47,201 nt of DNA from a virus, in IMG/VR virus record IMGVR_UViG_3300025669_000059, positions 1 to 47,201 of that record; one strand, given 5' to 3'. The notes beneath the pieces were generated by a model, which had not been told where the DNA came from, did not search any database, and saw only the letters and a program-made list of their open reading frames with translations. Both the position numbers and the translations under genes were made by a program. Below, piece after piece: positions 1,465 through 32,445 of this stretch (positions are counted from its first letter, which is position 1; every line of letters starts with the position of its first letter).

Positions 1465-4400
1465 ATGGCATCATTTAAAGACTACTTAGATTCACAGAAC
1501 AAGCAATCAACCGACAGAGGTCCATTCGTAAAACCTGTAGATTTTAGTGTTAATGATACAAAGGAGACTATTCAGGCTCCCGCTTTTGGTCAAAGACAAT
1601 CTTTCCCAGATACTGCACTACCAACAACCTTCAATCAGGGATTTTTAGAAGACGGAAAGTTTGTGACAAAAACAATAACCCCTGGTAGTGGGACTATTTC
1701 ACAGGGAAAAATAGGCGCCCTTGAAGGGTTTGTTGATAGCATAACTGATTGGGACAGAGAGGACGTACCTTATTCTGGTTCTTTTATAGAGTCCGCAGAT
1801 TTGGTTAAAGTGGCGATTGCATCAAATAGATTCGAAAAAGGAGTTAAAACAGAAGAGGATGCCAAGTTGATAAATGACTACTATACTAAAATAAAAACAG
1901 AGGAAAAGCTAAGAGAGAACAAAGGGTACGCTATTGGTGAAGGAGTAAAAACCTCCGCTAGATTTATGGGTGAGTTAGCTATAATCGCTGTTACAGAAAT
2001 ATTCACAGGTGGTGTAGCCCCGACTGGAGATGCCTATGTTATTGCTCAAGTCGCTAAAATGGGAGCAAAGAAAACAGTAGAAAAACTGATTAAAGATAAA
2101 GTGTTTAGAGCATCTGTGAGCAAAGTAGTCAAGAACAAGCTAAAGCAAGAGGCTAAACTAATAGCTAAACAATTTGTAATAACAGCCCCAACGAATGTGA
2201 CTGGTTCAGCGGCAGAAAGAATGATTGGTAGCTATAATCTGGAAACAGGTGAAGTTATAGATCCTGGACAAGAGATTGGTGAAGCAACGGTGAACGGTTT
2301 GAGCCAACACGCTGTTGAACTGATTACAGAAAGAGGAGGAGGAGTCTCTGGTAAAATACTTGGTACTCTTACCGCACCTGTAAAAAAGGTTGTTGTGAAA
2401 ACAGCTCTTTATCAGGCACTTTCAAAAGCAATCCCCAAAGCAACCAATCCACAACTTGTGGCACTTATAAATAAAACTGGTTGGAATGGAATTGTTGGCG
2501 AGTGGTTTGAAGAAAGAGATGCTGACATTTTAAATAATGCACTGGAGGCTGTCGGATTAGGAGACCAAGATTTTACGGGGCTAACGCTAGACGAAATGAC
2601 AACTGAGTTAGCAGTGATTGCTATTTCAGCTGGTGCTATTAAGGGGGCTGTTTACACATCAAACAAGACCTCTGACATTTTAACACAAAAAGCTAAAGAT
2701 TATGTTGGAGAAGGAGCAACAGAAGAAGAGGCTAAAAGTAAGGCAGAACAAGGTGGATTCATAAAGTTTGGAAAAGATTCGGAAGAACTTTCAGACGAAG
2801 AGAAGTTAAAAGAAGTACAGAGAGTGTTTAGTGAACAGGCAGCTAAGAGCGTAGACCAGAAGATCACAGAGCAAATAAGACATTATCAAGATGGTGGTGG
2901 ACGTAGCGTTGGTACTGAAACAGCTAGTCCATTTTTAAGAGACATTAATGAGCTAATCCAAACACCAGAAGGAGAAGCAAGAGCACGTGGCGATCTAGCT
3001 AAAGCCATAGAGTCAGGAGAATTACTACAAAATGACAATGGCAGCATAACTCTTTATAGGGTTGGAGAGATAGGTACAAAGAACCCATTATTCTCTGCAA
3101 CATATAATAAGGAGTTTTCTCAAGAGTTTTCTGATGCAGCAAAAGCAAAGATAACTCAATTTGAGGTTAAACCAGAGGAGATAAAAGTCTTTATAGGTGG
3201 AGTGGAGTCTGAGGTATTGTTAGCAGAAACTGACAGAGGACTGGTCAAAGTAACTAAACAAACTATAGAAAAAGAAGCTGAGAAGATGTTAAGTGGGATA
3301 GATATAACTAAAGAAAAGTTCGAGCTTGATGCTAAAGAGTTTATTTCTAATAGAATGAAAAAATTAGACATTTCTTCTGATAGTTTTAGTTTAAATAGCG
3401 TCGAGGCTGGTGGAAGTAGGGTTGGTGGAAATCCAAGAACAGATTCTGACTTAGACGCTCGTGTATATTACGATGGGACTATGTCCGAAGATAAAGTCCA
3501 TGACATCCTTGTAGATATAAATTGGGAAACAGGAGAAACCTTGTCTGGAGACGGAGAAATGCAAGGATATAAAGATGAATCAGGAGACTATGTAAACATA
3601 GACATTGAACCTATTAAGGACGCGTTTAAAACAAAACCATTAAACCCTAAAGACTATAAGTTTGGCGAGATAACAACAGATGATGCAGACGGGTTTATTG
3701 GTAAGACATTCACTGAATCAACCAAGGGGCTTTCCGAAGGAAATGAAGGAGTTGTTATCAAGGGTGAGAGAGAGCTAGAGGTTGTTTCTAGGAGAGGCAA
3801 TGACTTCATCGTTAAAGATACAACAACCGGAAAAGAGGAAGATTTTGATGCTTCACTATTCATTAGAAACTTTAAGGGTGGAACCACCAAAGAAATCTTG
3901 GGTGTTCAAAGCAAAGTGGAAGACAAGGGAGGAGTTATCCAAATAGATAAAGGACAGCCTAAAGAAGAAGTGGCTACTAAGGAAGTAAAGCCAGTTGACT
4001 CTACCCCAAAAGTAAAGAAGCCTAGAAGAAAGGCTCCAAACAAATTTGAGAAGCAAGCTTTAGGAATACCAGCAGATGAGGTAGTAACTAGGAAGGAGAA
4101 GAGCTTATTAAAGACTACTTTTAGAAAGGTCAGTAAGTTTGCTAAGAAAAGCTTCCAAGCTGGTAAAACAGAAAAAAGGATTGAACTAACCAAGAAGTTC
4201 AAAAAGCAGAAAGCAGCTCTAACCGAGAAGCAGAAGATCCGTAGAGACGCTATGAATGAGAAGTTCAGAAACAGAAAAGCGGAGATAATTTCTGAACAAA
4301 AGGCTAGTAGAGATGCTATCGTAGAGCAGTTAAAAACAAAAGCTAAAGATATAAGTAAGATTAAAAATAACATTATCGCTTATATCAAAAACGTAAAAAA

Positions 4401-12476: not shown

Positions 12477-12482
12477 TATAAT
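12477..12482 (+). promoter_or_regulatory. Candidate -10 box before RNA-1
   Basis: TATAAT lies 26 bases before the RNA-1 terminal helix and just after the stop of the previous gene. The -35 region at 17-18 bases (TTATGG around 12453) is a poor match, so activation or read-through transcription is possible. Confidence 0.5.
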
Positions 12483-12507
12483 AGAGATAGAACATTTAAA
12501 TAGTTGA

Positions 12508-12616
12508 GGGTTGGAAGCGAAACTTGTTTTGCATTTTGTCCAGACGTGGACTCCGAGGAACTCGTGGGTCGTCAGACCTAATCGGCTAAGCTGATGACGA
12601 GTTCCGCTTCTAACCC
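12508..12616 (+). ncRNA. Structured RNA-1 (GUCA-hairpin family)
   Basis: A 12-bp terminal helix pairs GGGTTGGAAGCG (12508-12519) with CGCTTCTAACCC (12605-12616), with one G-U pair. Inside are the hairpin GTCCA-GACG-TGGAC (12538-12551) and a helix GAACTCGT/ACGAGTTC (12558-12565 with 12597-12604). That helix encloses GGTC-GTCA-GACC (12567-12578) followed at once by TAATC and, 8 bases on, TGATG. The same core occurs at 20.4 kb and in part at 13.35 kb. It ends 21 bases before a gene with a good Shine-Dalgarno, so it could be a leader regulating that gene or a separate RNA. No known family was recognised. Confidence 0.65.
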
Positions 12617-12637
12617 TTAACAAATAGGAGATACGTT

Positions 12638-12811
12638 ATGCCTACCGAAAGCATAATTGAGGAGGAAGTCTACATTGATGACAAAGAAGATTTAATTCTT
12701 CTGATTCACAAACTTCACCACTTATTAAAAAAGGTGAACAGACGGAAACGTAGGATTGTCGTTATTTTCTTTGACGAGGAAGTTGAGAAATTTCCGAAAG
12801 GAGCAAGGTAA
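12638..12811 (+). CDS. Small charged protein with strong Shine-Dalgarno
   Basis: This 57-aa protein runs from MPTESIIEEE to EKFPKGAR. It has an acidic N-terminus, a helical Leu/His stretch (IHKLHHLLKK) and a basic patch (NRRKRRI) followed by a hydrophobic VVIFF strand. AGGAG at 12626-12630 sits 7 bases before the ATG. Most genes in this window lack such a site. Its stop overlaps the next start (TAATG), so the two are translationally coupled. Function unknown. Confidence 0.65.
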   Translation: MPTESIIEEEVYIDDKEDLILLIHKLHHLLKKVNRRKRRIVVIFFDEEVEKFPKGAR

Positions 12812-13044
12812 TGAGAACCAAGGTCTTTCACTGCACGAAGCATGGACACTTTCCTGTTGATGGAGACTTAGAGATTTGTCTCTCTCAAAACGCACATAAA
12901 GGTTGCCAAAACCTTGTGGAGTGTAATACCAGAAAGGAGTTTGACAATGTCAGAAGAAAACCAACAGCCAAGCAACGCAGACGCAACGAAAGAAGAAAAG
13001 AGAGACGAAGGCTTACTGCTTTACGAAATAGTAGCACCAGATAG
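12811..13044 (+). CDS. Small Cys/His protein with highly basic tail
   Basis: This 77-aa protein has GGAG 8 bases before its ATG, and the start overlaps the previous stop. The first 45 residues contain Cys and His (FHCTKHGHF, ICLSQNAHKGC, VECN) that could bind zinc. The last 30 residues are almost all Arg, Lys and polar residues, and are encoded where the next gene already runs in another frame (12947-13044). The tail might be real overprinted coding sequence for nucleic-acid binding. The well-formed Shine-Dalgarno supports at least the N-terminal half. Confidence 0.55.
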   Translation: MRTKVFHCTKHGHFPVDGDLEICLSQNAHKGCQNLVECNTRKEFDNVRRKPTAKQRRRNERRKERRRLTALRNSSTR

Positions 13045-13159
13045 TGCTAGACGTGAAGCCTTTCCAGTCATACTGGATCAGTACACCTACACTTGCGATA
13101 GCAAAGACCACGACTTAGTAGTCAGACTATTCGCAGTCGTACGGAAACGTACCTCTTAA
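12947..13159 (+). CDS. Small acidic protein, overlapping gene
   Basis: This 70-aa protein starts at 12947, chosen because GGAG (12936-12939) lies 7 bases upstream; the frame is open further up but without such a site. The N-terminus is polar and acidic (SEENQQPSNADATKEE), and the remainder looks like a small alpha/beta fold (LLLYEIVAPDS, YTYTCDSKDHDLVVRLFAVV). It overlaps the preceding gene by 98 bases in a different frame and is followed at once by a hairpin. Function unknown. Confidence 0.6.
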   Translation: MSEENQQPSNADATKEEKRDEGLLLYEIVAPDSARREAFPVILDQYTYTCDSKDHDLVVRLFAVVRKRTS

Positions 13160-13164
13160 ACTAT

Positions 13165-13220
13165 GGGGAGATATGCCACAGACTATAACGTCTAACATAT
13201 TAAATAGGTTATATCTCCCC
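13165..13220 (+). terminator. Hairpin with 10-bp stem, terminator-like or structured 3-prime end
   Basis: GGGGAGATAT (13165-13174) pairs perfectly with ATATCTCCCC (13211-13220). The 36-base interior holds a second hairpin, AGAC-TATAAC-GTCT (13180-13193). It directly follows the stop at 13159. Only a short T run follows (TTTAACC), so it may protect or process the RNA 3-prime end rather than being a classical terminator. Confidence 0.5.
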
Positions 13221-13265
13221 TTTAACCTTAAAATAACAGCCAATAATGATTATAAATTGGTTTTC

Positions 13266-13396
13266 CTAGCTTACTTGGTAGCGAAGTTGTAAAACGAGTA
13301 CCTAATACGGCTCACTCGCAAGAGAATCAAGTCTAGTAGGGGGCGTTAATCCTTGGGCGTCAGCCCACGTAATCAAAAGGATTGTCCCTTACTAGA
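13266..13396 (+). ncRNA. Structured RNA-3 (GUCA-hairpin family)
   Basis: Two domains are visible. In the left one CTAG and ACTTG (13266-13277) pair with CAAGT and CTAG (13328-13336). In the right one TCTAGTA (13332-13338) pairs with TACTAGA (13390-13396), AATCCTT (13348-13354) pairs with AAGGATT (13377-13383), and these enclose GGGC-GTCA-GCCC (13355-13366) then ACGTAATC. The two domains share CTAG, so they may be alternatives. The GUCA hairpin plus TAATC is the motif seen in RNA-1 and RNA-4. No ORF covers 13160-13539. Confidence 0.55.
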
Positions 13397-13402
13397 AGAT
13401 TT

Positions 13403-13450
13403 AACTATAGGTATATAATGGGTATACAACAGGTATAGTTATACCTATAC
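13403..13450. promoter_or_regulatory. Operator-like palindromes around a -10 box, upstream of the endolysin
   Basis: TATAAT at 13414-13419 lies inside repeated GGTATA/TATACC words. AGGTATA-GT-TATACCT (13431-13446) is a perfect palindrome, and TATAGGTATA just before the -10 is repeated inverted as TATACCTATA just after. No good -35 is present. A dimeric regulator could bind here and control the lysis genes. The stretch 13451-13539 has no other evident feature. Confidence 0.5.
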
Positions 13451-13539
13451 TAAGTAGCGAGTAATATTGAGAATATCCAACCACTTTGTAGAAGTTGTAA
13501 TAGTAGCAAGCACACAACAATTATTAAATACAATATACA

Positions 13540-14112
13540 GTGATAAAAATTTGTAAACCATTTAAAAACGCAAAAACATGGCATATTTCACAGCCATTTG
13601 GAGTTAATCCACAGTCTTACCAGCCTGATGGGCATGTTGGAGTAGATTGGGCTAACGGACGGAAAGGTACCTGGTTGGTCTCTCCAGTCAAATGTAGGGT
13701 AATAAAGGTAGTAGGGGCTATAAGCCTCACAGAGGGCTCAGAAATAGAAATTAGAAGGGGTTACGGAATAGTGTTAGAGTCTTTAGTTGATGTAAACACC
13801 TTTTATCTACATTGGCACTGTAATCCTGTCTTTCCAGTTAGTGAAGGAGACTTTGTAGACCAAGGACAGAGAGTAGCCCAGATGTCTAACTCAGGATATG
13901 TTTTCCATGCAGGAGTTTATGTAGAGATTAAAGAAAGGCTAGGAACCAATAAAGGAGTACACACGCACTTTGAAGGATACCATTTGGATAATGGAAAGAA
14001 GGTGTATTTTGACACCACCCCATTGATAGATTGGTCAATTAAAATTCCGGATAAGGGGATATTAGTCGCTATCTCTAACGTAATAGCAAAAATAATTAAA
14101 TTATTAAAATAA
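13540..14112 (+). CDS. M23-family peptidase, endolysin
   Basis: This 190-aa protein starts with GTG. Lysostaphin-type (M23) zinc endopeptidase motifs are in order: GHVGVDWA (H32, D36), LHWH (H91, H93) and VHTHFE (H141, H143). H32, D36 and H143 are the expected zinc ligands. M23 enzymes cut peptide bridges of peptidoglycan. There is no signal peptide, so a holin or ejection would be needed. The C-terminal 20 residues form a hydrophobic/basic helix (LVAISNVIAKIIKLLK) that may contact membrane. The next gene overlaps its stop (TAATG). Together with its small-membrane-protein neighbours it forms a lysis cassette. Confidence 0.88.
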   Translation: MIKICKPFKNAKTWHISQPFGVNPQSYQPDGHVGVDWANGRKGTWLVSPVKCRVIKVVGAISLTEGSEIEIRRGYGIVLESLVDVNTFYLHWHCNPVFPVSEGDFVDQGQRVAQMSNSGYVFHAGVYVEIKERLGTNKGVHTHFEGYHLDNGKKVYFDTTPLIDWSIKIPDKGILVAISNVIAKIIKLLK

Positions 14113-14318
14113 TGAATCAAGCGTTGAAAGAACAATTAATTAAACGATTAAAGTCTTTTGTATGGCGCGTAGGAGCTTATGCAGTTATCGGAGGGATAGC
14201 CTTGGTAATTGATATGCTGGGAATGATAGAAGCAAACCCAGTAATAGTAACTATCGTATCATTAGCAGGTGGTGAAATAACTAAGTACATTAATTCACCC
14301 ATAAAAAAGACCGACTAA
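14112..14318 (+). CDS. Small membrane protein, holin candidate
   Basis: This 68-aa protein has a basic amphipathic N-terminus (KEQLIKRLKSF) and two hydrophobic segments (about 19-37 and 42-56), then a short polar tail. It overlaps the endolysin stop by one base, the usual place for a holin. The family was not identified. Confidence 0.65.
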   Translation: MNQALKEQLIKRLKSFVWRVGAYAVIGGIALVIDMLGMIEANPVIVTIVSLAGGEITKYINSPIKKTD

Positions 14319-14322
14319 TAAT

Positions 14323-14478
14323 TTGTTAAATTGGAAAGTGATTCTACTTATATACATGGCTTTCTGGGTACTATTCTTTATTGCCACTAGCGATAGTGTC
14401 AGTAGCACGATCAAGAATAGAAACGTTTGCTGGAGTGGAGCGATAACAGACAGAGAGTTTAAAGATTGCTTAAAGTGA
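14323..14478 (+). CDS. Membrane-anchored microprotein, spanin-like candidate (TTG start)
   Basis: This 51-aa protein is read from TTG, 5 bases after the holin-candidate stop; the only ATG alternative (14356) would cut the membrane helix. Residues 5-21 are a strong hydrophobic helix, followed by a short extracytoplasmic tail with two Cys (NVCWSG and FKDCLK). Position and topology suit a lysis accessory protein, but the start is uncertain. Confidence 0.5.
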   Translation: MLNWKVILLIYMAFWVLFFIATSDSVSSTIKNRNVCWSGAITDREFKDCLK

Positions 14479-14521
14479 GCTCGGTTACTCCTTAGCAGGT
14501 CTATTAATACATGCTTAATTT

Positions 14522-14551
14522 TCTCCGCTAAGATACTTTGTATCTTCGGAG
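14522..14551. other. Stem-loop after the lysis genes
   Basis: CTCCG, CT bulge, AAGATAC, TTT loop, GTATCTT, CGGAG form a strong hairpin of 12 bp. It lacks a T tract on either strand, so it may stabilise the 3-prime end of the late transcript or assist termination with the next hairpin. I see nothing else in 14479-14610. Confidence 0.5.
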
Positions 14552-14616
14552 ACGAACAAAAAAATAAAAGCCTACATTTTTATCTGTGAATATCGGATAA
14601 CCTTGCAAAATAAAAG

Positions 14617-14640
14617 ACTACTTTTTTAGAGTAGTTTTTT
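14617..14640. terminator. Bidirectional terminator between convergent blocks
   Basis: ACTAC (14617-14621) pairs with GTAGT (14631-14635). A T6 tract follows on the plus strand and an equivalent run is created on the minus strand by the A/T loop flank. It lies exactly where plus late genes and minus early genes meet, and covers the stop codon of the last minus gene. Confidence 0.65.
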
Positions 14641-14895
14641 ATTGCCACACTTGCATTTGACAAGTTTCTGTCTATGTGGCTTTTGTTGTATGTGGAACTT
14701 GAGTTGTATCTTTACCCCACACTTGTCGCAGATCCATTGCGGGAAGTTTACTTTTTTATGATAATAATCTCTGCTCTTCTGCTGTAGCCTTTCCTTGTTC
14801 TCTTCATAATATACTTTGGCTCTGCAAGGCTCTCCACAGTAAGTAGCGTGCTCAGTTTCTTTGTTGCAATATATGCATCTGTTTATTTCAGTCAT
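14626..14895 (-). CDS. Zinc-ribbon protein
   Basis: This 89-aa protein is the last of the minus block. CIYCNKETEHATYCGEPC (near 7-24) and CDKCG..CKCG (near 56-84) give two Cys4-type zinc sites separated by a charged helix. The first is like zinc fingers of phage HNH or transcription-accessory proteins. Its start overlaps the RusA-like gene by 8 bases. The exact role is unknown. Confidence 0.7.
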   Translation of the reverse strand: MTEINRCIYCNKETEHATYCGEPCRAKVYYEENKERLQQKSRDYYHKKVNFPQWICDKCGVKIQLKFHIQQKPHRQKLVKCKCGNKKLL

Positions 14896-15256
14896 GTTGG
14901 GTAATAGTTATGATTATATAAGGTTTCACGTCCTTATCGTACTCCCAGTCTTGCTCTCCTGAGAAGTAACAATCATCTATATCTATCCCCGTTTTAATTG
15001 AGTCATATATCCCATCTATAAAGTTTGATACATCGCAGACCATTCTAGGCTTTTGTAAGAATATCTCTACCCATATCTTGTCTTTCTTCCACTTAACCCC
15101 CCTAGAATGCCCCCAAACTATGTCTGATAGGCTCTTACACGCTTCTTTGTACTCTTTTGTTGTATAATACCTGCCCTTAGCGAACCCTTTCATTTTATTT
15201 TTCCCTAGAGATGGAGTATAAGGTATCTCTATTTGGATTGTTCTAGTTTGATCCAT
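14888..15256 (-). CDS. RusA-like Holliday junction resolvase
   Basis: This 122-aa protein matches the RusA family in length and pattern. It has an N-terminal beta strand with P residues (IEIPYTPSLGKNKM), a tyrosine/lysine-rich helix, then the acidic core D75, N78, D81 (CDVSNFIDGIYDSI) and IDIDD (D92, D94, D95), followed by YIIITI. RusA enzymes cut four-way DNA junctions during phage recombination and before packaging. It overlaps both neighbours, so it is part of a recombination operon with the exonuclease and ssDNA-binding candidates upstream. Confidence 0.8.
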   Translation of the reverse strand: MDQTRTIQIEIPYTPSLGKNKMKGFAKGRYYTTKEYKEACKSLSDIVWGHSRGVKWKKDKIWVEIFLQKPRMVCDVSNFIDGIYDSIKTGIDIDDCYFSGEQDWEYDKDVKPYIIITITQHD

Positions 15257-15563
15257 ATTTTTTATTTAAATAATTTTGCAATGTTGACCAATCTTTTTTG
15301 GGGTATTCAGCTAAGTCTTCTGGTGTAGCGTGTCTTAAAGCTAAGTACTCGTTCTTCCTCTTGTCTAGCCCGGGACCAAGGTGAGACCAATAACATAATC
15401 TTATCACAGCCCACTTGTCCGGTATTTGCCTCCCTCTATATATGAGAGCATGTTCCATAGTAGAGCGACCATCGCAGACATGATCCTTAAAGCAGACTTG
15501 CCTCTCGCATTCAGGTCTCTCTTTTACTATCTCTTCAAATATATGTTTAGGAGTCTTGTGCAT
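15243..15563 (-). CDS. HNH-like nuclease-related protein
   Basis: This 106-aa protein has paired Cys (PECERQVCF, HVCDG), then MEHALIYRGRQIPDKWAVIRLC and a later His (WSH). That resembles compact phage HNH folds, in which EH...C..H bind metal. One usual His is replaced (WSH in place of a HH/WHH pair), so activity is doubtful. It overlaps the RusA-like gene by 14 bases. Confidence 0.55.
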   Translation of the reverse strand: MHKTPKHIFEEIVKERPECERQVCFKDHVCDGRSTMEHALIYRGRQIPDKWAVIRLCYWSHLGPGLDKRKNEYLALRHATPEDLAEYPKKDWSTLQNYLNKKYGSN

Positions 15564-16122
15564 TGTTAGTTAGTTTATTGATTAAGTCTTGTAGGGCAAT
15601 ACTATAAGCTGTATGTTGAGCTTCGTAAACTATATTATCATCCTTAGTTAAATCAGCCATATTTTTTATTGTTTCCTCAATCATCTCTATTATCTCCTCA
15701 TCTCTTTCCTCCTTAGCTTTTTTGATTTCTTGTGAGATGAAGGCTTTGATATTAAAGTTTCGCCCAATATCTCCATATTCATCATAAAGTAATCCATATA
15801 ACTTACTCTCCCAACCCTCTACCACATCTTCTTTGTGTGCAGGTTTTATAATCTTTCCACAACTATCGCAAGTCTCAACAAATACTTCTCCGTTTCCTTC
15901 GTTAGTCCTTGTAGTAGTTTTGTGTTCACACTCTTCTTTAGGTGCAGGTTTTCTAAAAGGTTCACCCCATACCACTTCTTCTTTGGGTGTTGGGGGTTGG
16001 TGGCATTCACAACTTAGATTATGACATCCATCTCCCTGACAATCACATTCCCCAAGTTCATTGGAAGCACAATCTATATTATGCATTATACAGCTGTGGC
16101 AACATTTGTTTTCTTCTACCAT
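15547..16122 (-). CDS. Cys-rich hypothetical protein
   Basis: This 191-aa protein has a striking N-terminus with 10 Cys and several His in the first 40 residues (CCHSCIMHNIDC, ECDCQGDGCHNLSCECH). A second CDSCG site lies in the middle (near 85), a linker carries two PKEE repeats, and the C-terminal half is acidic and helical. It probably binds two or more metal ions. Its end overlaps the next gene by 17 bases. No family recognised. Confidence 0.6.
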   Translation of the reverse strand: MVEENKCCHSCIMHNIDCASNELGECDCQGDGCHNLSCECHQPPTPKEEVVWGEPFRKPAPKEECEHKTTTRTNEGNGEVFVETCDSCGKIIKPAHKEDVVEGWESKLYGLLYDEYGDIGRNFNIKAFISQEIKKAKEERDEEIIEMIEETIKNMADLTKDDNIVYEAQHTAYSIALQDLINKLTNNAQDS

Positions 16123-16143
16123 AGTCTTATTTGTCTTTTAAGA

Positions 16144-16302
16144 TTAATCAATATTTAGAATCTTTCCATATTTACCTTCAAAAACTTCAAAACTTTCACC
16201 TTGCAGTGCATAGCCTCCACCACAATTATCACTTACCCAAATAGGCAAATCTTTATCTTCAATTTTATTTAATTCTTCAATAAGTTCTTTTACTGTCATC
16301 AT
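16144..16302 (-). CDS. Small hypothetical protein (MTVKELI family)
   Basis: This 52-aa protein begins MMTVKELIEELNKIEDKDLPIWV. The same opening occurs in a second small gene at 26968-27117, so the two are paralogues of a small protein common in phages. Its start overlaps the previous stop (TAATG). Function unknown. Confidence 0.65.
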   Translation of the reverse strand: MMTVKELIEELNKIEDKDLPIWVSDNCGGGYALQGESFEVFEGKYGKILNID

Positions 16303-16484
16303 TATTTGTCTTTTAAGTTAGTATTAGGTGTGGTTTTTAATAACTCATTAATCTTTTGATTATTCTTTCCAGTTTTGCAATTACAATTTCCCCAATCAGA
16401 TGTTATAAAATGACAATCTGCATTGTGCCAAACACCACAATAATACCAGTAGTTCTTAAAAATGTTTTTAATATCTTTCTTCAT
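16302..16484 (-). CDS. Small Cys-rich hypothetical protein
   Basis: This 60-aa protein has C, H and C residues in YYCGVWHNADCHF and GNCNCKTG, which could bind one zinc ion, and polar ends. The leader CTAAACAATAAAGA before the ATG is shared almost exactly with the gene at 16523-16666, a non-Shine-Dalgarno start context. Confidence 0.55.
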   Translation of the reverse strand: MKKDIKNIFKNYWYYCGVWHNADCHFITSDWGNCNCKTGKNNQKINELLKTTPNTNLKDK

Positions 16485-16522
16485 CTTCTTTATTGTTTAG
16501 GTTAGTTATTAGGGAACACTAC

Positions 16523-16666
16523 TCATTTGGATTTACTAATGGAAATACCAATCTGCCCTAAAACGACTGCTAATAGTCCAAACATCCCTCCGTAATAAGT
16601 TCCTATTCCACCTGCCAACCCACTAAAGAATAATCCTATTATAAATTTTATTGTTTCTTTTTTCAT
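16523..16666 (-). CDS. Small membrane protein
   Basis: This 47-aa protein starts MKKETIKF and has two glycine-rich hydrophobic segments (FIIGLFFSGLAGGIG and GMFGLLAVVLGQIGI). It ends with TGA, which shows that TGA acts as a stop in this genome. The leader is A/T-rich. It could be a small holin-like or host-membrane-targeting early protein. Confidence 0.65.
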   Translation of the reverse strand: MKKETIKFIIGLFFSGLAGGIGTYYGGMFGLLAVVLGQIGISISKSK

Positions 16667-16769
16667 ATCTTTATTGTTTAGTTAATATTGTAAGGTATTA
16701 GGGGTGTGGGGTTTTAACTTTCAACATTATGTTTTTTACAAACTTCACATTCCCACCTTTCGTCGAGTA

Positions 16770-17076
16770 CTTATCACAACCCCCATAAAGGAGCTGTGTA
16801 AAAACTAGACTGAACCCAACGAACCTAACCGTATCGCATCACATCGTGTCACATGCTCATCACAGTTCCCGTAAAGGAACTATGTGAAAACTTGACTCTC
16901 CATAACAAACCTCACCTATTCGTGCCCTGTCTCGTCATGTCCTTAGTACAGTCCACATAAATGAGCTGTATGAAAACTTGACTAAACAAACCTAACCTAT
17001 ACAGATCCTGGCTAAACTAATCTCTCCATATCGTGTTCTTATCTTAATCCCCATAAAGGGACTAAGTAAAAATACG
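16770..17076. repeat. Four tandem degenerate units of 86-96 nt, each with a covarying hairpin
   Basis: Hairpins start at 16775, 16861, 16947 and 17043. Each has a stem, the loop CATAAA or CGTAAA, the other stem arm, then A-rich sequence and an ACTTGACT-like word. The outer stem pairs change together: CACA/TGTG twice, TACAG/CTGTA, and CTTA/TAAG. The inner pairs GTTCC/GGAAC and TCCC/GGGA also compensate. The rest of each unit is also related (AAACCTAACCTAT, then TCGTGT), so these are whole-unit tandem repeats and not CRISPR repeats with unique spacers. There is no open frame through them. They fill the largest gap in the minus block. The strand they act from is unknown; surrounding genes are transcribed on the minus strand. 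Confidence 0.8.
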
Positions 17077-17078
17077 AC

Positions 17079-17348
17079 TTATTTTCTTTTACCAAATATT
17101 GATTTGATAACATTAACTTTTTCCCCTACACCTTTCATTTTGAAATACCCAACCTTAGCTTGAAAAGAAGCCTTATAAGCATTGAAAAACCCTAAGGTTA
17201 ATTTCATATTCTTATATCTATCAGGTGTCATTTTTTTGTGAGATGTTGCGTCTGTAGAGGCAATCATCGCTTCTAACAATTCCTTTGCAGGAGTTACTAG
17301 ATTGAATTCTTTTAAGTTCTCTTTTGTTTCTTTTATTTCTTTTGCCAT
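17079..17348 (-). CDS. Hypothetical basic protein
   Basis: This 89-aa helical, Lys-rich protein (pI clearly basic) ends IKSIFGKRK. It lies just before the tandem hairpin repeats and one base after the 176-aa gene. Basic helices next to a repeat array could suggest nucleic-acid binding, but this is only contextual. No family recognised. Confidence 0.65.
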   Translation of the reverse strand: MAKEIKETKENLKEFNLVTPAKELLEAMIASTDATSHKKMTPDRYKNMKLTLGFFNAYKASFQAKVGYFKMKGVGEKVNVIKSIFGKRK

Positions 17349-17349
17349 T

Positions 17350-17880
17350 TTATTTTATTACTTTAAAAGTTTTAATTTGGAATCTTCCAAAACGAGGTCT
17401 CATGTCTCCTATACCAATGTATAGACCTGCATATTCTAGCACTTCTTTGACAACATTCGCTTCTATTCTGTCATCAATGACTTGGATCTCAAATGATAAC
17501 TCCCACTTATCTATCCTAGGTCTAGCTCTCATAATCCTTGACCTTTGGATTACTACTGGCTGTCTGTCGACCTCATAGCTTTGTGATTTGTGTGGAATCA
17601 TATCAGGACCTATAAATATACCTCCTTTGAAAGCGTCTTTATAAGTTTTCTTTCCCTCAAATTTGAAGTTTGTTGCTGACTTGATTAGGCAGGCTTCAAA
17701 GTGAGTTGCTGGTTGGCAGATCTTTCCTTTGCTGTTTAAGTATAGTCTTGTCTTAGCTTCATCAGCTGAAACATATACTTTCTTTTTCTTCTTACTTGCA
17801 TTGTCTTCGTGTTCCTCGTCAGGGAATCTATTCTGCAAGATAGGGGCTAACCCCGATACTGTGACTTTAATTTTTAACAT
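17350..17880 (-). CDS. Conserved phage protein of unknown function (recombination cluster)
   Basis: This 176-aa protein reads MLKIKVTVSGLAPILQNRFP, then a Lys-rich linker, KTRLYLNSKGKICQPATHFEACLIKSA, DMIPHKSQSYEVDRQPVVIQRSRIMRARPRIDKWELSFEI and finally GIGDMRPRFGRF. I recall this pattern as a widespread but uncharacterised phage/mobile-element family. The strand-rich build and the glycine-rich C-terminal loop look like ferredoxin-like RNA- or DNA-binding folds. It sits among ssDNA-binding-like, SWIM and exonuclease genes, so a role in DNA metabolism is likely. Confidence 0.65.
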   Translation of the reverse strand: MLKIKVTVSGLAPILQNRFPDEEHEDNASKKKKKVYVSADEAKTRLYLNSKGKICQPATHFEACLIKSATNFKFEGKKTYKDAFKGGIFIGPDMIPHKSQSYEVDRQPVVIQRSRIMRARPRIDKWELSFEIQVIDDRIEANVVKEVLEYAGLYIGIGDMRPRFGRFQIKTFKVIK

Positions 17881-17900
17881 ATCATTTTTTATTTTATTAA

Positions 17901-18083
17901 TTATTCATTATTAAGATGATTGTATACTTTCTCGGCATGACTACATCTTTTCCTCATCATAAAAGAGATGCAGTCGCAGACCATATTATTGTCGGATCGC
18001 AATTCAACCTGATGAAACGTTTCCGGTTCACTCTTGCTTCTGACCTTAAATCTTTTGATTGTATATGGTATATCTATTTTCAT
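17901..18083 (-). CDS. SWIM-type zinc finger microprotein
   Basis: This 60-aa protein consists of a small beta region and CDC(x8)CSH: C36, C38, C47 and H49, the CxCxnCxH signature of SWIM domains, which bind zinc and usually DNA or proteins. It contains nothing but the finger. It is downstream of the ssDNA-binding candidate in a recombination-like cluster. Confidence 0.7.
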   Translation of the reverse strand: MKIDIPYTIKRFKVRSKSEPETFHQVELRSDNNMVCDCISFMMRKRCSHAEKVYNHLNNE

Positions 18084-18094
18084 TTTTTTGATAT

Positions 18095-18136
18095 GGGGGG
18101 ATAGAGGAGTTGAACCTCTGTCTACCTTTTCCCCCT
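18095..18136 (-). ncRNA. tRNA acceptor/T-arm-like minihelix (element X)
   Basis: On the minus strand GGGGGA, 10 bases, AGAGG, loop TTCAACT, CCTCT, one base, TCCCCC form an acceptor-like 6-bp helix stacked on a perfect T-arm. The loop fits the TTCRANY tRNA consensus. D and anticodon arms are missing, so it is not a functional tRNA. It fills the 61-base gap between two genes. A second element with the same geometry is at 37093-37135. It could be an RNA-processing signal (RNase P/Z type), or a relic of a tRNA-derived attachment site. Confidence 0.55.
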
Positions 18137-18144
18137 GCTTAAAC

Positions 18145-18492
18145 CTATACTACTTCAATGTCTTCACTCTCTTTATCCTCCGCGCTATCCCATACAGCGC
18201 TGTCTTTTTGCTCTCCAAAGGCTTGTATCTTAGTCACAGTGGCTACGATTGACTTGCCATTCCAGTTCTTGCTGTCTTTACCAAATGCTTCTAGCAAGTT
18301 TCTTATAGAGGCATTATTGAACGTGGTTATCTTAGTGTTTCCATCCATCAACTCAAGTTCAAAGTTGTAGATCATTTTTGTCTTGTCTTTTGGAGCTGGG
18401 ACTAGCTCTCCCTCTGATCTGATTGTGCAGAAGTCTCCATCTTTGATGTCTACCCCTACTTTAGCAAATTTGCTTTGTATTGAAATTTCCAT
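18145..18492 (-). CDS. Putative ssDNA-binding protein (OB-fold-like)
   Basis: This 115-aa protein has beta strands with charged turns (GDFCTIRSEGELVPAPKDK, MIYNFELELMDGNTKITTFNNASIRNLLEAFG), then KNWNGKSIVATVTKIQAFG and an acidic tail (SAEDKESEDIEVV). The strand order, the N-x-S-x-x-N-L-L-E helix and the acidic C-terminus resemble single-stranded DNA-binding proteins of phages. The neighbouring exonuclease and RusA-like genes support the role. Family membership was not verified. Confidence 0.6.
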   Translation of the reverse strand: MEISIQSKFAKVGVDIKDGDFCTIRSEGELVPAPKDKTKMIYNFELELMDGNTKITTFNNASIRNLLEAFGKDSKNWNGKSIVATVTKIQAFGEQKDSAVWDSAEDKESEDIEVV

Positions 18493-18507
18493 ATTGTTTT
18501 TTGTTGT

Positions 18508-18858
18508 TTAATATAAATCTATACACTCTACTATAGCTTCAGATAGTCCAGCTTTCATTCTTGGAGAAAGCTTATTATCTAATACATAGTCAACAGCATC
18601 TTTAATAAGGTTCTCTTCTCCCATATTTTTGACTAATACCCTGTAGGTACAAGCACAGTATGCCCTTGCTCCTTTTGTATGCCCTGCACTCTCCACACAA
18701 CCATTTATATACTCTATCCTAAATGAATCTACTACTGACTCTTCTTCTGCGTAGGTTGAGATTGGATCTACTCCATCTGCTGTCAATACTAACGCTCCAC
18801 CAATAACTATCATTGCAAATGCCATGATTATTAAGGTTATTTTTAATTCGTTTGTCAT
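18508..18858 (-). CDS. Membrane-anchored or exported Cys protein
   Basis: This 116-aa protein has a hydrophobic N-terminal segment (residues 7-26) followed by an acidic soluble domain. That domain has Cys in NGCVESAGHTKGARAYCACTY and in VECIDLY, likely forming disulfides if exported. It is a single-pass envelope protein expressed with early genes, so it may affect the host envelope or superinfection. No family was identified. Confidence 0.65.
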   Translation of the reverse strand: MTNELKITLIIMAFAMIVIGGALVLTADGVDPISTYAEEESVVDSFRIEYINGCVESAGHTKGARAYCACTYRVLVKNMGEENLIKDAVDYVLDNKLSPRMKAGLSEAIVECIDLY

Positions 18859-18867
18859 TTTATCTTA

Positions 18868-19056
18868 TTAATTATTTTTTTCACCAATTTCTACATATTC
18901 ACCCAAAAACTCTTTAAGCTCTTCTAACGTCATTTCTGGATTGAGCCTTATTAGGTCACCAGAGAATTCCTTATCGCCTATTGTGAATTCTTGTGTCCCT
19001 TGTGTAAAAAATCTTAGTTTTTCTATTTCTTCTACGCTAAATTTTATGTTATCCAT
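18868..19056 (-). CDS. Small acidic hypothetical protein
   Basis: This 62-aa, highly acidic protein contains FFTQGTQEFTIGDKEFSGDLIRLNPEMTLEELKEFLGEYVEI. The helical C-terminus is amphipathic. It overlaps the upstream zinc-ribbon gene by 8 bases. Function unknown. Confidence 0.6.
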   Translation of the reverse strand: MDNIKFSVEEIEKLRFFTQGTQEFTIGDKEFSGDLIRLNPEMTLEELKEFLGEYVEIGEKNN

Positions 19057-19279
19057 TTTTTTTCTTTTTAATTATTTTTACTACTTTCTTTTCTGCTGGT
19101 ACAAGACCAGATAATTGCTTGATACAAGTATAACAAATGTACATATCCTCTCCGTCATAAGTATGTGCGTCACTTATGTATAGGCAGTCATGTACCTCTC
19201 CGCAAACATCACAATCTGTCTTTTCAGATATTACTACTGGAGTGGTGTCAACATCTTGGCTAAGAATTAATTTTTTCAT
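19049..19279 (-). CDS. Zinc-ribbon microprotein
   Basis: This 76-aa protein has CDVCG and, 22 residues later, CYTC, a four-Cys zinc ribbon, and ends in a Lys-rich tail (VVKIIKKKKNG). It overlaps the exonuclease gene by 20 bases. It is probably a nucleic-acid or protein adaptor; the partner is unknown. Confidence 0.65.
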   Translation of the reverse strand: MKKLILSQDVDTTPVVISEKTDCDVCGEVHDCLYISDAHTYDGEDMYICYTCIKQLSGLVPAEKKVVKIIKKKKNG

Positions 19280-19832
19280 CTTTTTTTTTATTTAATAATA
19301 ATAATTCTTTGTGAAACTTTCTTAATATGTCCTGAACATCCGACCAAACCTCTTCAGAACTTTCGTATGGGATAAGTGTTAATAATGGGTGGTTTCTGAA
19401 TATCCCTAGATAGGTTGGCTTTTCAAATGCCCTGTATTCTAGTTCTAACTGATGTTTCCATTTGTCGGGGATCATATTATCCATAGGTTTGTCGGGGCGC
19501 TTAGTCTCCCATACTTTATCGGGGAAAACATAGTCAGGCTTTACGGTTACTGTGAAGTCGTCTATCTTGATCTCTCGTCTTTCTTGGTATTTACAATTAG
19601 CCTTATTCCACTGCAACATTTCTGTTAGATAGTTTTCATAGGCTACCCCACCGGCTATACATTCGCATCCCCAAATATCTATAGGTTTTTTCTTAAAGAA
19701 GTTTTTAGGTATTAAGTATCTCTGCTTCATATAATATACCTCTGAAGCGTAGTAGTGCCCTATCTCGCGGACATGTTTCCCTGCGTCTTTCTCATTTACA
19801 TATTTTGCGTGTAATTCTTTTATTCCTGCCAT
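19260..19832 (-). CDS. PD-(D/E)XK exonuclease (RecB/Cas4-like)
   Basis: This 190-aa protein carries the motifs of RecB-type nucleases in order: GVAYEN (E66), VKPDYVF (D100), WETKR (E109, K111) and HQLELEY (Q128, Y133). Such phage enzymes resect DNA ends for recombination. The Cys pair CEC near 56-58 does not make a Cas4 iron-sulfur cluster by itself. It is directly preceded by a 108-aa partner gene and followed by zinc-ribbon and ssDNA-binding candidates, forming a recombination module. Confidence 0.8.
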   Translation of the reverse strand: MAGIKELHAKYVNEKDAGKHVREIGHYYASEVYYMKQRYLIPKNFFKKKPIDIWGCECIAGGVAYENYLTEMLQWNKANCKYQERREIKIDDFTVTVKPDYVFPDKVWETKRPDKPMDNMIPDKWKHQLELEYRAFEKPTYLGIFRNHPLLTLIPYESSEEVWSDVQDILRKFHKELLLLNKKKDEKINS

Positions 19833-19833
19833 G

Positions 19834-20160
19834 TTAGTCTATGACTGGAACATCTGACCAGTCTTTATCAGGATTATTTGCATCTATAACTCTATCTATC
19901 AATCCTAGTTTCATTTTTAGCTTCTTGTCATTCTTCTTAAACCATTCTTCAGTAGCTGTTTGGATTGCTTCTTGGTTAGAAGCGAAGAACTTGTCTCTCC
20001 AAGTCTCTATGACCTTTAGAAAGTCTTCATGTGTGCCTTCTACCGGTCCCGCTATGGCTACATCTACAGCCTTAGAGAAAGAGTTACCCATTCCTTGCCC
20101 TATAGCGTACTTCACATCTTTAACTGCAAAGTCGTATTTGTCTTGATTTGAATATGCCAT
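19834..20160 (-). CDS. Hypothetical protein paired with the exonuclease
   Basis: This 108-aa, mostly helical protein (MAYSNQDKYDFAVKDVKYAIGQGMGNSF and later LKMKLGLIDRVID) ends DWSDVPVID. Its stop is one base from the exonuclease start. By position it might help recombination or annealing. No family was recognised. Confidence 0.6.
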   Translation of the reverse strand: MAYSNQDKYDFAVKDVKYAIGQGMGNSFSKAVDVAIAGPVEGTHEDFLKVIETWRDKFFASNQEAIQTATEEWFKKNDKKLKMKLGLIDRVIDANNPDKDWSDVPVID

Positions 20161-20163
20161 TTT

Positions 20164-20382
20164 TTATTCTTTAATTTCATTTTTTGATTCGACCTTTTCA
20201 CAGGGGAGAAAGTATTTGTCTTGATCTCTCTCCCATATTTTCTTAGTGTTTCTCTTGTCTTTTTCTCCAAACAATTGAGCAACCCCATAAGTAGTCCAAC
20301 CACACTTCATCAATAATACTATAGCTGTGTTCTTCCTCTCATTTTTCTTAGTAGACCAGCGTTCTTTTTGTTTTTCTGACAT
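20164..20382 (-). CDS. Small helix-turn-helix protein
   Basis: This 72-aa basic protein contains TTYGVAQLFGEKDKRNTKKIWERDQDKYF, which fits a helix-turn-helix (YGVAQLFG then recognition helix). It is the first gene downstream of the strong promoter and structured RNA-4, a natural place for an early regulator. Confidence 0.6.
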   Translation of the reverse strand: MSEKQKERWSTKKNERKNTAIVLLMKCGWTTYGVAQLFGEKDKRNTKKIWERDQDKYFLPCEKVESKNEIKE

Positions 20383-20407
20383 TTATTCTTTATTTAATTA
20401 TTTAAGA

Positions 20408-20600
20408 TTCACTAAATAGGAGGAGCAAGGATTTGACGAGATGCCATCACCGTAGCGATTAGGGCTGACGCCCCGCATAACTCGTATAGTCACCTTGCCT
20501 GATAAGGTCTTCGTACTCGCCCTATCTCGATACATTGGGACTGTTAACATCCCTGATTACGCCCTCAGCACTACTACGTGCCACCCTCCTATTTAATGAA
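20408..20600 (-). ncRNA. Structured RNA-4 (GUCA-hairpin family)
   Basis: The ends pair over about 15 bp: TTCA-C-TAAATAGGAGG (20408-20423) with CCTCCTATTTA-A-TGAA (20585-20600). In minus-strand sense it contains GGCAC/GTGCT near the 5-prime side. It also has an arm CGAG...CTCG holding GGGC-GTCA-GCCC (20473-20462), then TAATC and, 7 bases on, TGATG (20449-20445). That core is almost the same as in RNA-1. A perfect consensus promoter lies immediately upstream and no ORF covers the region, so this is a confident transcribed non-coding RNA or a very long structured leader of the HTH gene. Confidence 0.75.
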
Positions 20601-20610
20601 CCTTTTCTCT

Positions 20611-20639
20611 ATTATACACCCATAGGTATCCAATGTCAA
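20611..20639 (-). promoter_or_regulatory. Consensus sigma70 promoter for RNA-4
   Basis: On the minus strand TTGACA (20639-20634), a 17-bp spacer and TATAAT (20616-20611) match the consensus exactly. The start site would be near 20604, at the foot of the RNA-4 terminal helix. Confidence 0.9.
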
Positions 20640-30208: not shown

Positions 30209-30237
30209 TTGACATATATTTTTTCAGCAGATATAAT
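30209..30237 (+). promoter_or_regulatory. Consensus sigma70 promoter giving leaderless terS mRNA
   Basis: TTGACA (30209-30214), a 17-bp spacer and TATAAT (30232-30237) match the consensus exactly. The ATG of the next gene is at 30244, 7 bases after the -10, which is the expected transcription start, so the mRNA should begin with AUG. Confidence 0.9.
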
Positions 30238-30705: not shown

Positions 30706-32230
30706 AGCTGTTGAAGAAATAGCAGAGCACCTTGCTGATAGAAAGTGGAGGATCAACAATCTATATTGGATTAAAGACGATCAAGGAAATCACACTAAAT
30801 TCGTGATGAATGAAGTCCAGGAGCTGATGTACGACAACCTCCATTACATGAACATTGTATTAAAGGCTAGACAGCACGGGATCACAACCTTAGTCTGCAT
30901 TCTTAATTTAGACAGCACCCTGTTTGAAATGAAAGACTCAGCCGCCATCGCCCACACAATGTTTGACTCAACTAAAATTTTTGACTCAAAGATTAAATAC
31001 GCCTGGAACTCATTGCCCGAATGGCTTAAAAATGAGTTTGAGGTAGACCAGAACAACGCCAGAACCTTAAAAATAAAACGAGGGAATCAGGAGGCGTCTG
31101 ATTACGTAGGGACGTCTCTCCGTGGAGGGACTCTGCAAAATTTGCATATCACAGAGTTAGCTACTATTGACCAAAGAGAACCAGATAAAGCAATTGAAAT
31201 TAAAACAGGAGCCTTGAACACCGTCCACCAGGGACAGATTGTTATAATTGAATCAACTTCAAAAGGACAATACGGAGTATTCTACGATCTATGTAAGCAG
31301 GCTATGCAGAATGAAAAAGAAGGAAAGGAATTGACTCCAATGGATTATAAGTTTTTCTTCTTCCCATGGTTTTTCAAATCTGAATATTCTATGGATGCAG
31401 CTGGAATTATAACTAAGGAGACCTTAGATTATTTTGAACACTTAGCAGCCGAAACTGATTATAAATTTTCAAGAGCTCAGAAATTGTGGTACCAAAAGAA
31501 GAAAGAAACCCAAAAAGACTCTATGAAAGCAGAGTTCCCGTCCACCCCAGATGAAGCTTTTCAAGCTAATATTGAAGGATCTTACTATGGTAAGCAAATT
31601 GATAAGCTAAGAGAGCAAAAACACATCACTACGATCCCGTATGACCCTATTTTAAGGGTTGACACATGGTGGGATTTGGGAGTTGGTGATTCAATGACTA
31701 TTATATTTACACAAACTCACGGATTAGAGATTCGAATCATTGATTATTATGAAAATTCCGGGGAAGGAGTGGCTCATTACATCCAAGTCTTAACAGACAG
31801 AGGATATTTATATAAAACACATAACGCGCCACATGATATTGAAGTCAGAGAGCTAACTACAGGAGTGACTAGAAAAGAAACAGCTGAAAAGATGGGAATT
31901 ACTTTTAATGTTATAGACAAATTGTCAATTGAAGACGGAATTGAAGCTGTTCGAAACTTATTGCCTAGGTGCTTCTTTGATGAAGGAAACACTACTGAAC
32001 TATTAAAAGCTTTAGGAGAATACAGAAAAGAATGGGACGACAAATTAGGTACATTTAAAAACAAACCATTGCATAACTGGGCGTCACACGGTTCAGATGC
32101 TTTCAGGTTGTTAGGAGTAGGATATAAAGACACCACAGGAATGCCTGTTGGTGAAGATAGCGAGATGTGGGACGAGATGAAGAAGCAAGCAGAAGAACCA
32201 GTTGATCCTCACAATTTATTCCCTTGGTAA
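30671..32230 (+). CDS. terL: Terminase large subunit
   Basis: This 519-aa protein contains the packaging ATPase and headful nuclease domains. The Walker A-like motif is KARQHGITT (65-73), Walker B ends at E162 (LHITE), and the coupling motif is ESTS (194-197). The nuclease acidic residues are D335 (WWDLGVGDS) and D476 (SHGSDAFR). Length and motifs are normal. It pumps DNA into the prohead using ATP and cuts the concatemer. It overlaps the small subunit gene and is followed by a structured gap and the portal gene. Confidence 0.93.
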   Translation: MAKKQTSQAANEAVEEIAEHLADRKWRINNLYWIKDDQGNHTKFVMNEVQELMYDNLHYMNIVLKARQHGITTLVCILNLDSTLFEMKDSAAIAHTMFDSTKIFDSKIKYAWNSLPEWLKNEFEVDQNNARTLKIKRGNQEASDYVGTSLRGGTLQNLHITELATIDQREPDKAIEIKTGALNTVHQGQIVIIESTSKGQYGVFYDLCKQAMQNEKEGKELTPMDYKFFFFPWFFKSEYSMDAAGIITKETLDYFEHLAAETDYKFSRAQKLWYQKKKETQKDSMKAEFPSTPDEAFQANIEGSYYGKQIDKLREQKHITTIPYDPILRVDTWWDLGVGDSMTIIFTQTHGLEIRIIDYYENSGEGVAHYIQVLTDRGYLYKTHNAPHDIEVRELTTGVTRKETAEKMGITFNVIDKLSIEDGIEAVRNLLPRCFFDEGNTTELLKALGEYRKEWDDKLGTFKNKPLHNWASHGSDAFRLLGVGYKDTTGMPVGEDSEMWDEMKKQAEEPVDPHNLFPW

Positions 32231-32320
32231 CTTACAGGTTAATGGGTGGATTCTTCCACTCTCGCGCGTGGGCGGTGAAGTTTATTTTCATTTCTTCACC
32301 TCTACCCATTAGTTTGTAAG
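32231..32320 (+). promoter_or_regulatory. Portal leader, structure A
   Basis: CTTACA (32231-32236) pairs with TGTAAG (32315-32320) and TAATGGGT (32240-32247) with ACCCATTA (32304-32311). Inside are CCAC/GTGG (32256-32271) and GGTGAAG/CTTCACC (32274-32300). The closed multi-arm fold starts right after the terL stop. Its closing arm (GTTTGTAAG) is also needed for structure B, so the two folds exclude each other. Confidence 0.65.
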
Positions 32321-32445
32321 TTTAAGCGGAGACATAAGATAATCCAAAGAACTAATAGTATCAATTACTAATAGGTAAGCAGAGGCAAGGATTACAACCA
32401 TGTTTCCACCAACAATCTTATGTGTCTCTGCTCAAGCTTACAAAC
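32312..32445 (+). promoter_or_regulatory. Portal leader, structure B
   Basis: GTTTGTAAG (32312-32320) pairs with CTTACAAAC (32437-32445), and AGCGGAGAC...TAAGAT (32325-32340) pairs with ATCTTA..GTCTCTGCT (32415-32432) with a two-base bulge and a G-U pair. Inside lie AATCC/GGATT and TAGTA/TACTA. It ends 24 bases before the portal start. The competition with structure A over 32312-32320 looks like a riboswitch or an attenuator-like switch. Confidence 0.65.

Follow-up and report, generated by a model that had tools for sequence, protein, structure and literature searches.

Here, we describe a compact RNA core that occurs twice in full in the IMG/VR virus record IMGVR_UViG_3300025669_000059 (positions 1 to 47,201, a stretch of 47,201 nucleotides (nt) hereafter called the window) and once more in a contig from an unrelated phage. 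Within the window, the loci RNA-1 (core at 12557..12605, plus strand) and RNA-3 (core at 20437..20484, minus strand) fold into the same three-way junction around a hairpin capped by the loop GUCA, and a third locus, RNA-2 (13332..13396, plus strand), is treated here as a divergent or decayed copy and a distant member. The unrelated contig, L095, carries the same junction with different stem sequences. The secondary structure of the core is well supported, and we consider it a credible, previously uncatalogued RNA motif for which a role in transcript leaders is the most likely reading.

A three-way junction built on a GUCA loop

The initial annotation had noticed a GGKC-GUCA-GMCC hairpin followed by UAAUC at three loci on both strands, and both observations were borne out by counting. 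A search for GGNCGTCAGNCC with at most one mismatch returned three matches in the window, each of them exact (12567 and 13355 on the plus strand, 20473 on the minus strand), where 0.41 were expected by chance and 0 of 100 shuffles reached three; CGTCAGNCC-N(0-3)-TAATC returned the identical three loci, with none expected. All three lie in gaps between listed open reading frames (ORFs), and each is enclosed, as had been proposed, by an outer closing helix: 16 base pairs (bp) in RNA-1 (12503-12518 with 12606-12621), about 11 bp with one bulge in RNA-2 (TCTAGTA-GGGG/CCC-T-TACTAGA), and 20 bp in RNA-3 (20604-20585 with 20423-20404). Folding against shuffled sequences gave z-scores of -6.88 (RNA-1), -4.7 (RNA-2) and -6.59 (RNA-3), and folding favored the strand given here over its complement by 15.5, 9.1 and 22.1 kcal/mol, respectively, a preference of 9-22 kcal/mol that stems from G·U pairs. 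The complementary strands of the three loci likewise fold better than shuffles. Given the folding and the strand bias, the loci are most simply understood as RNA structures on the strands given here and not as mere DNA palindromes.

In RNA-1 and RNA-3 the core runs through P1, P2, a single A, P3, a single G and the return strand of P1. Beneath the GUCA cap, P2 is 5 bp long (G·U, G-C, G-C, N-N and C-G), and the base of P3 starts with AUC and ends with GAU. In RNA-1, P1 spans 12557-12565/12597-12605, P2 12566-12570/12575-12579 with its GUCA loop at 12571-12574, and P3 12581-12586/12590-12595, the linkers being A 12580 and G 12596. The corresponding minus-strand elements of RNA-3 are P1 at 20484-20475/20444-20437 with a UU bulge, P2 at 20474-20470/20465-20461 with its loop at 20469-20466, linker A 20460, P3 at 20459-20455/20450-20446 with a UACG loop, and linker G 20445. 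The structures of both cores rest on folding, covariation and covariance modeling: the isolated RNA-1 core folds at -26.0 kcal/mol into exactly the drawn structure and scores 57.5 bits with model R1, and the pairing probability of P3 is at least 0.90 in both copies. The two differ in P1 (UCGU/ACGA versus AUGC/GCAU), in one pair of P2 (U-A versus G-C) and in P3 (AUCGGC-UAA-GCUGAU versus AUCGC-UACG-GUGAU). The compensating stem changes first noticed are present and amount to a single pair within one genome; the stronger covariation comes from L095.

P3 also bears on an earlier suggestion that UGAUG pairs with CGUCA as a pseudoknot or switch. Such pairing is possible in RNA-1 and RNA-3, but UGAUG forms the 3' arm of P3, a stable second hairpin, and in RNA-1, RNA-3 and L095 the AUC of UAAUC is paired with the GAU of UGAUG, so that the pseudoknot or switch was abandoned. 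In L095 the putative partner is GGAUG; one of the five pairs proposed with CGUCA is thereby lost, whereas P3 is intact, and P3 covaries.

RNA-1 and RNA-3 further share a -10 box and the first ~35 nt, and of the 3140 windows against which the RNA-1 box with its next ~35 nt was tested, RNA-3 was the closest apart from RNA-1 itself; the two thus look like diverged duplicates, start included. For RNA-3, the perfect promoter previously reported at one locus is a sigma-70-type TTGACA-17-TATAAT (20639..20611, minus strand) placed before a predicted transcript body at 20404..20604 (minus strand), of which the 5' and 3' ends pair through the 20-bp outer helix. For RNA-1, the box TATAAT lies at 12477..12482 (plus strand), about the same distance away.

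RNA-2 departs from this plan in having a U-A pair at the foot of P2 (13354-13358/13363-13367, GUCA loop at 13359-13362), a longer linker, and competing pairing. Its P2 is followed by CG, UAAUC (13370-13374), GAUU (13380-13383) and G, and the predicted fold pairs UUAAUCC with GGAUUG instead of AAUC with GAUU, P3 not being formed in the ensemble. Covariance models score it at 13.8-14.7 bits (E 0.1-0.9), which is not significant.

The same core in an unrelated phage

The window encodes a terminase, a small DnaD-like loader and a peptidase M23/endolysin-like protein, which together identify it as a tailed phage, and the 47.2-kb record carries an identical repeated sequence at both ends. Scanning IMG/VR contigs for GGKCGTCAGMCCTAATC yielded a single contig, L095, whose portal, capsid and other proteins are not similar to the proteins that the window encodes. 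Its core reads UGGCGG, GGGGC GUCA GCCCU, A, AUCCUC AACA GGGGAU, G, CCGCCA. In an alignment of RNA-1, RNA-3 and L095, each of the 15 pairs is formed by every sequence, and 6 of them are changed on both sides; the covariation score of this alignment was reached by 0 of 500 shuffles, and sliding the pairing partners reduced pairing from 100% to 33-50%. Because L095 was found by way of P2 and UAAUC, independent evidence comes from P1 and P3 only. With P2-UAAUC held fixed, the observed P1 and P3 arose by chance in 0 of 400,000 trials and, in a second simulation, in 3 of 1,000,000, or 77 of 1,000,000 under the looser threshold that RNA-3 itself would set. A model based solely on RNA-1 and RNA-3 gave L095 36.3 bits against a best of 17.5 in 0.85 Mb of decoy contigs, a score that by itself is not overwhelming across the whole collection; it is the additional P1 and P3 pairs, outside the model, that make the case. 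The early proposal of a family of phage RNAs is thereby supported, the same architecture being present in a second phage. P1, P2 and P3, the GUCA loop, the A and G linkers and the AUC/GAU base of P3 are all found in RNA-1, RNA-3 and L095, with the loop, linker and junction bases fixed and P1 and the tip of P3 variable.

The L095 copy consists of the ~44-nt core only, inside a coding sequence and without an outer helix. The end of its P1 is followed by GGGAGGG and then the ATG, at 3964, of an ORF for an HNH endonuclease, placing the core 15 nt upstream of this start codon. The endonuclease ORF (3557-4019, minus strand of L095) runs, in a different frame, over the 3' end of the portal gene, and the core lies just before the start of this ORF.

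Further members were sought widely. A looser pattern with TGATG found 41 contigs, coding-like, dominated by one recurrent phage gene and without the GUCA hairpin; a pattern scan of genomes gave six matches, none with the structure; and a broader viral pattern gave 87 stretches, with the structure in L095 only and absent from the ~80 other contigs that matched. Model R1 returned nothing beyond chance matches from ~1,380 sampled bacterial genomes, its best matches there, one coding (L201) and one antisense to a gene (L202), lacking the GUCA loop and being judged chance. Named phages and plasmids, searched at the nucleotide level, gave no match, and a search for relatives of the L095 portal found only L095 itself. 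No near relative of the window phage was found in the collections searched: two of the three proteins taken as anchors led to no relative that could be used, and the GUCA motif was not found in the terminase relatives (36-48% identity).

A putative leader element and its alternatives

As the initial annotation had supposed, the motif appears to correspond to no named RNA family, the window having no Rfam match (Rfam 15, gathering cut-off); a permissive Rfam search with RNA-1, RNA-2, RNA-3 and L095 returned sub-threshold chance matches only. A weak match to a fragment of transfer-messenger RNA (tmRNA) near RNA-2 (E 0.017 for 381 bases) was judged chance, and ARAGORN finds no tmRNA. The hammerhead ribozyme is also a small three-way junction, and its CUGAUGA occurs in RNA-1, but RNA-3 and L095 lack that sequence, the junction has no GAAA and is joined by one A and one G, and Rfam gives no match; the assignment was rejected. 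Packaging RNAs of the phi29 type have their ends paired in a long helix with an internal three-way junction. The elements here share that layout, but differ in their multiple copies, in a phage with the usual tailed-phage terminase large subunit, and in the missing Rfam match. Translational operators of ribosomal proteins and phages resemble them in setting a structured element, which a protein could bind, just before a Shine-Dalgarno sequence, although no known operator matches.

We propose that the GUCA core is a compact element of ~40 nt built into phage transcript leaders, with two full copies and one degenerate copy in the window phage and one in an unrelated phage. The GUCA loop, held a fixed 5 bp from a fixed junction, would form a recognition surface for a phage or host protein or some other factor, and that factor, once bound, may set how the gene that follows is translated or processed, or how stable its message is. 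A cis-acting leader is favored because of where the cores lie: RNA-1 and L095 precede a Shine-Dalgarno sequence and ATG (in RNA-1, GGAG and the ATG at 12638 of a 57-amino-acid ORF, at 12626..12640 on the plus strand, directly after the closing helix), and RNA-3 heads the next ORF, with its ATG at 20382. The contrast between a fixed loop, linkers and junction and a variable P1 and P3 tip suggests a bound factor, being the usual mark of a recognized surface. We hold this reading, in which we infer transcription, cis action and binding, tentatively and with slightly less than even confidence. Several observations weigh against it. No good -35 box was seen for RNA-1, and in full context an alternative outer pairing is predicted over its P1 (P1 probability ~0.03), with P2 and P3 persisting; the ORF at 20382 has only a weak Shine-Dalgarno sequence, and RNA-2 lies ~140 nt from the next listed start. 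The genes downstream of the elements have no common function, and the evidence for a family spans two phages, the second represented by a single contig in which the element falls within a coding sequence, at its 3' end. A broader proposition is that small phage receptor RNAs of this kind form a new family: a ~40-nt junction with an invariant GUCA loop would have spread between unrelated phages, be bound by a putative common host factor or ligand, and be reused as a leader module in front of phage genes. This is possible but doubtful. Beyond a handful of classes, few compact structured RNAs are known from phages, and stems that covary around a fixed loop and junction in unrelated phages point to a shared binding partner. 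Its small size makes the core easy to study by binding, probing and reporter tests, and the covariance model is ready for other viral collections.

Other explanations account for parts of these data. RNA-1 (~120 nt) and RNA-3 (~200 nt) might be stand-alone noncoding RNAs acting in trans, with a host factor or a further RNA bound by the GUCA loop or the junction, and with read-through into downstream genes being incidental. The perfect promoter immediately before RNA-3, predicted ends paired over 20 bp, the shared 5' start and several extra hairpins between outer helix and junction would suit such molecules, but no intrinsic terminator was found directly after RNA-1 or RNA-3, and the L095 copy is a bare core within a coding sequence; we regard this as unlikely, if still a serious contender. 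An antitermination element of the nut or put kind, modifying RNA polymerase at phage transcript starts, is improbable, even with full copies near promoters on both strands and small basic proteins encoded between RNA-1 and RNA-2. Lambda nut carries boxB, a 5-bp hairpin with a fixed short loop that is repeated in one phage. The GUCA element is alike in these respects, but its loop is a tetraloop where boxB has a pentaloop, its hairpin sits within a junction with conserved bases, no boxA-like heptamer was found in the 300-400 nt around the three loci, leaving them without the nut arrangement, and the L095 copy lies at the end of a portal gene. The put element of phage HK022 suppresses termination by way of the zinc-binding domain of the beta-prime subunit of RNA polymerase. 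It comprises two ~70-nt RNAs downstream of early promoters, each with two long bulged stems and a triplex, and no closing junction helix is described for it (PMC9378689). Points of resemblance are a position after promoters, multiple copies in one genome and, in the older model of put, two neighboring hairpins one base apart, whereas P2 and P3 are short (5-6 bp) and unbulged within a closed junction with a GUCA loop, and the long bulged stems forming a V in early leaders were not found in the GUCA core. Searching the HK022 record for put sites by repeats gave nothing usable.

Equally improbable is that the loci are ordinary intergenic processing or stability hairpins, such as the RNase III sites of T7, with a GUCA core merely duplicated in the phage. 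Other long near-perfect intergenic hairpins without the motif do occur (for example, at 32228-32322 on the plus strand and 23791-23720 on the minus strand), but the invariant loop, linker and junction bases and the covarying junction in an unrelated phage would be left unexplained. It is very improbable that the loci are inverted repeats acting as DNA (at an origin, or in packaging or recombination) or products of chance: the repeats exist and fold on both strands, but the G·U pairs favor one strand by the margin given above, and chance is excluded for the motif and unlikely for L095.

Neighboring genes and other structures of the window

Between RNA-1 and RNA-2, a 77-amino-acid ORF (12811-13044, plus strand) has a Cys/His N-terminal part and a strongly Arg/Lys-rich end (TAKQRRRNERRKRE), a composition consistent with a possible RNA- or DNA-binding protein; it has no Pfam match and no confident PHROGs match, and it overlaps a second well-placed ORF at 12947-13159. 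A perfect TTGACA-17-TATAAT promoter lies upstream of the terminase region (30209-30237, plus strand), and the terminase-portal gap holds a closing helix of ~22 bp with two internal hairpins and without the GUCA motif (32228-32322, plus strand). The minus strand has a second perfect sigma-70-type promoter at 23867-23839, followed by a leader (23791-23720) with a hairpin of ~20 bp directly before the DnaD-like gene. At 23986-23920, also on the minus strand, TATAAT leads into a short GC-rich hairpin region, after which comes a strong terminator-like hairpin that has a T run; together they make up a candidate small transcript. An ORF-poor gap at 16755-17078 (minus strand) contains four spaced hairpin repeats with a period of ~80-95 nt, whose loops center on UUUAUG or UUUACG and whose stems vary yet remain paired, at 69% mean column identity.

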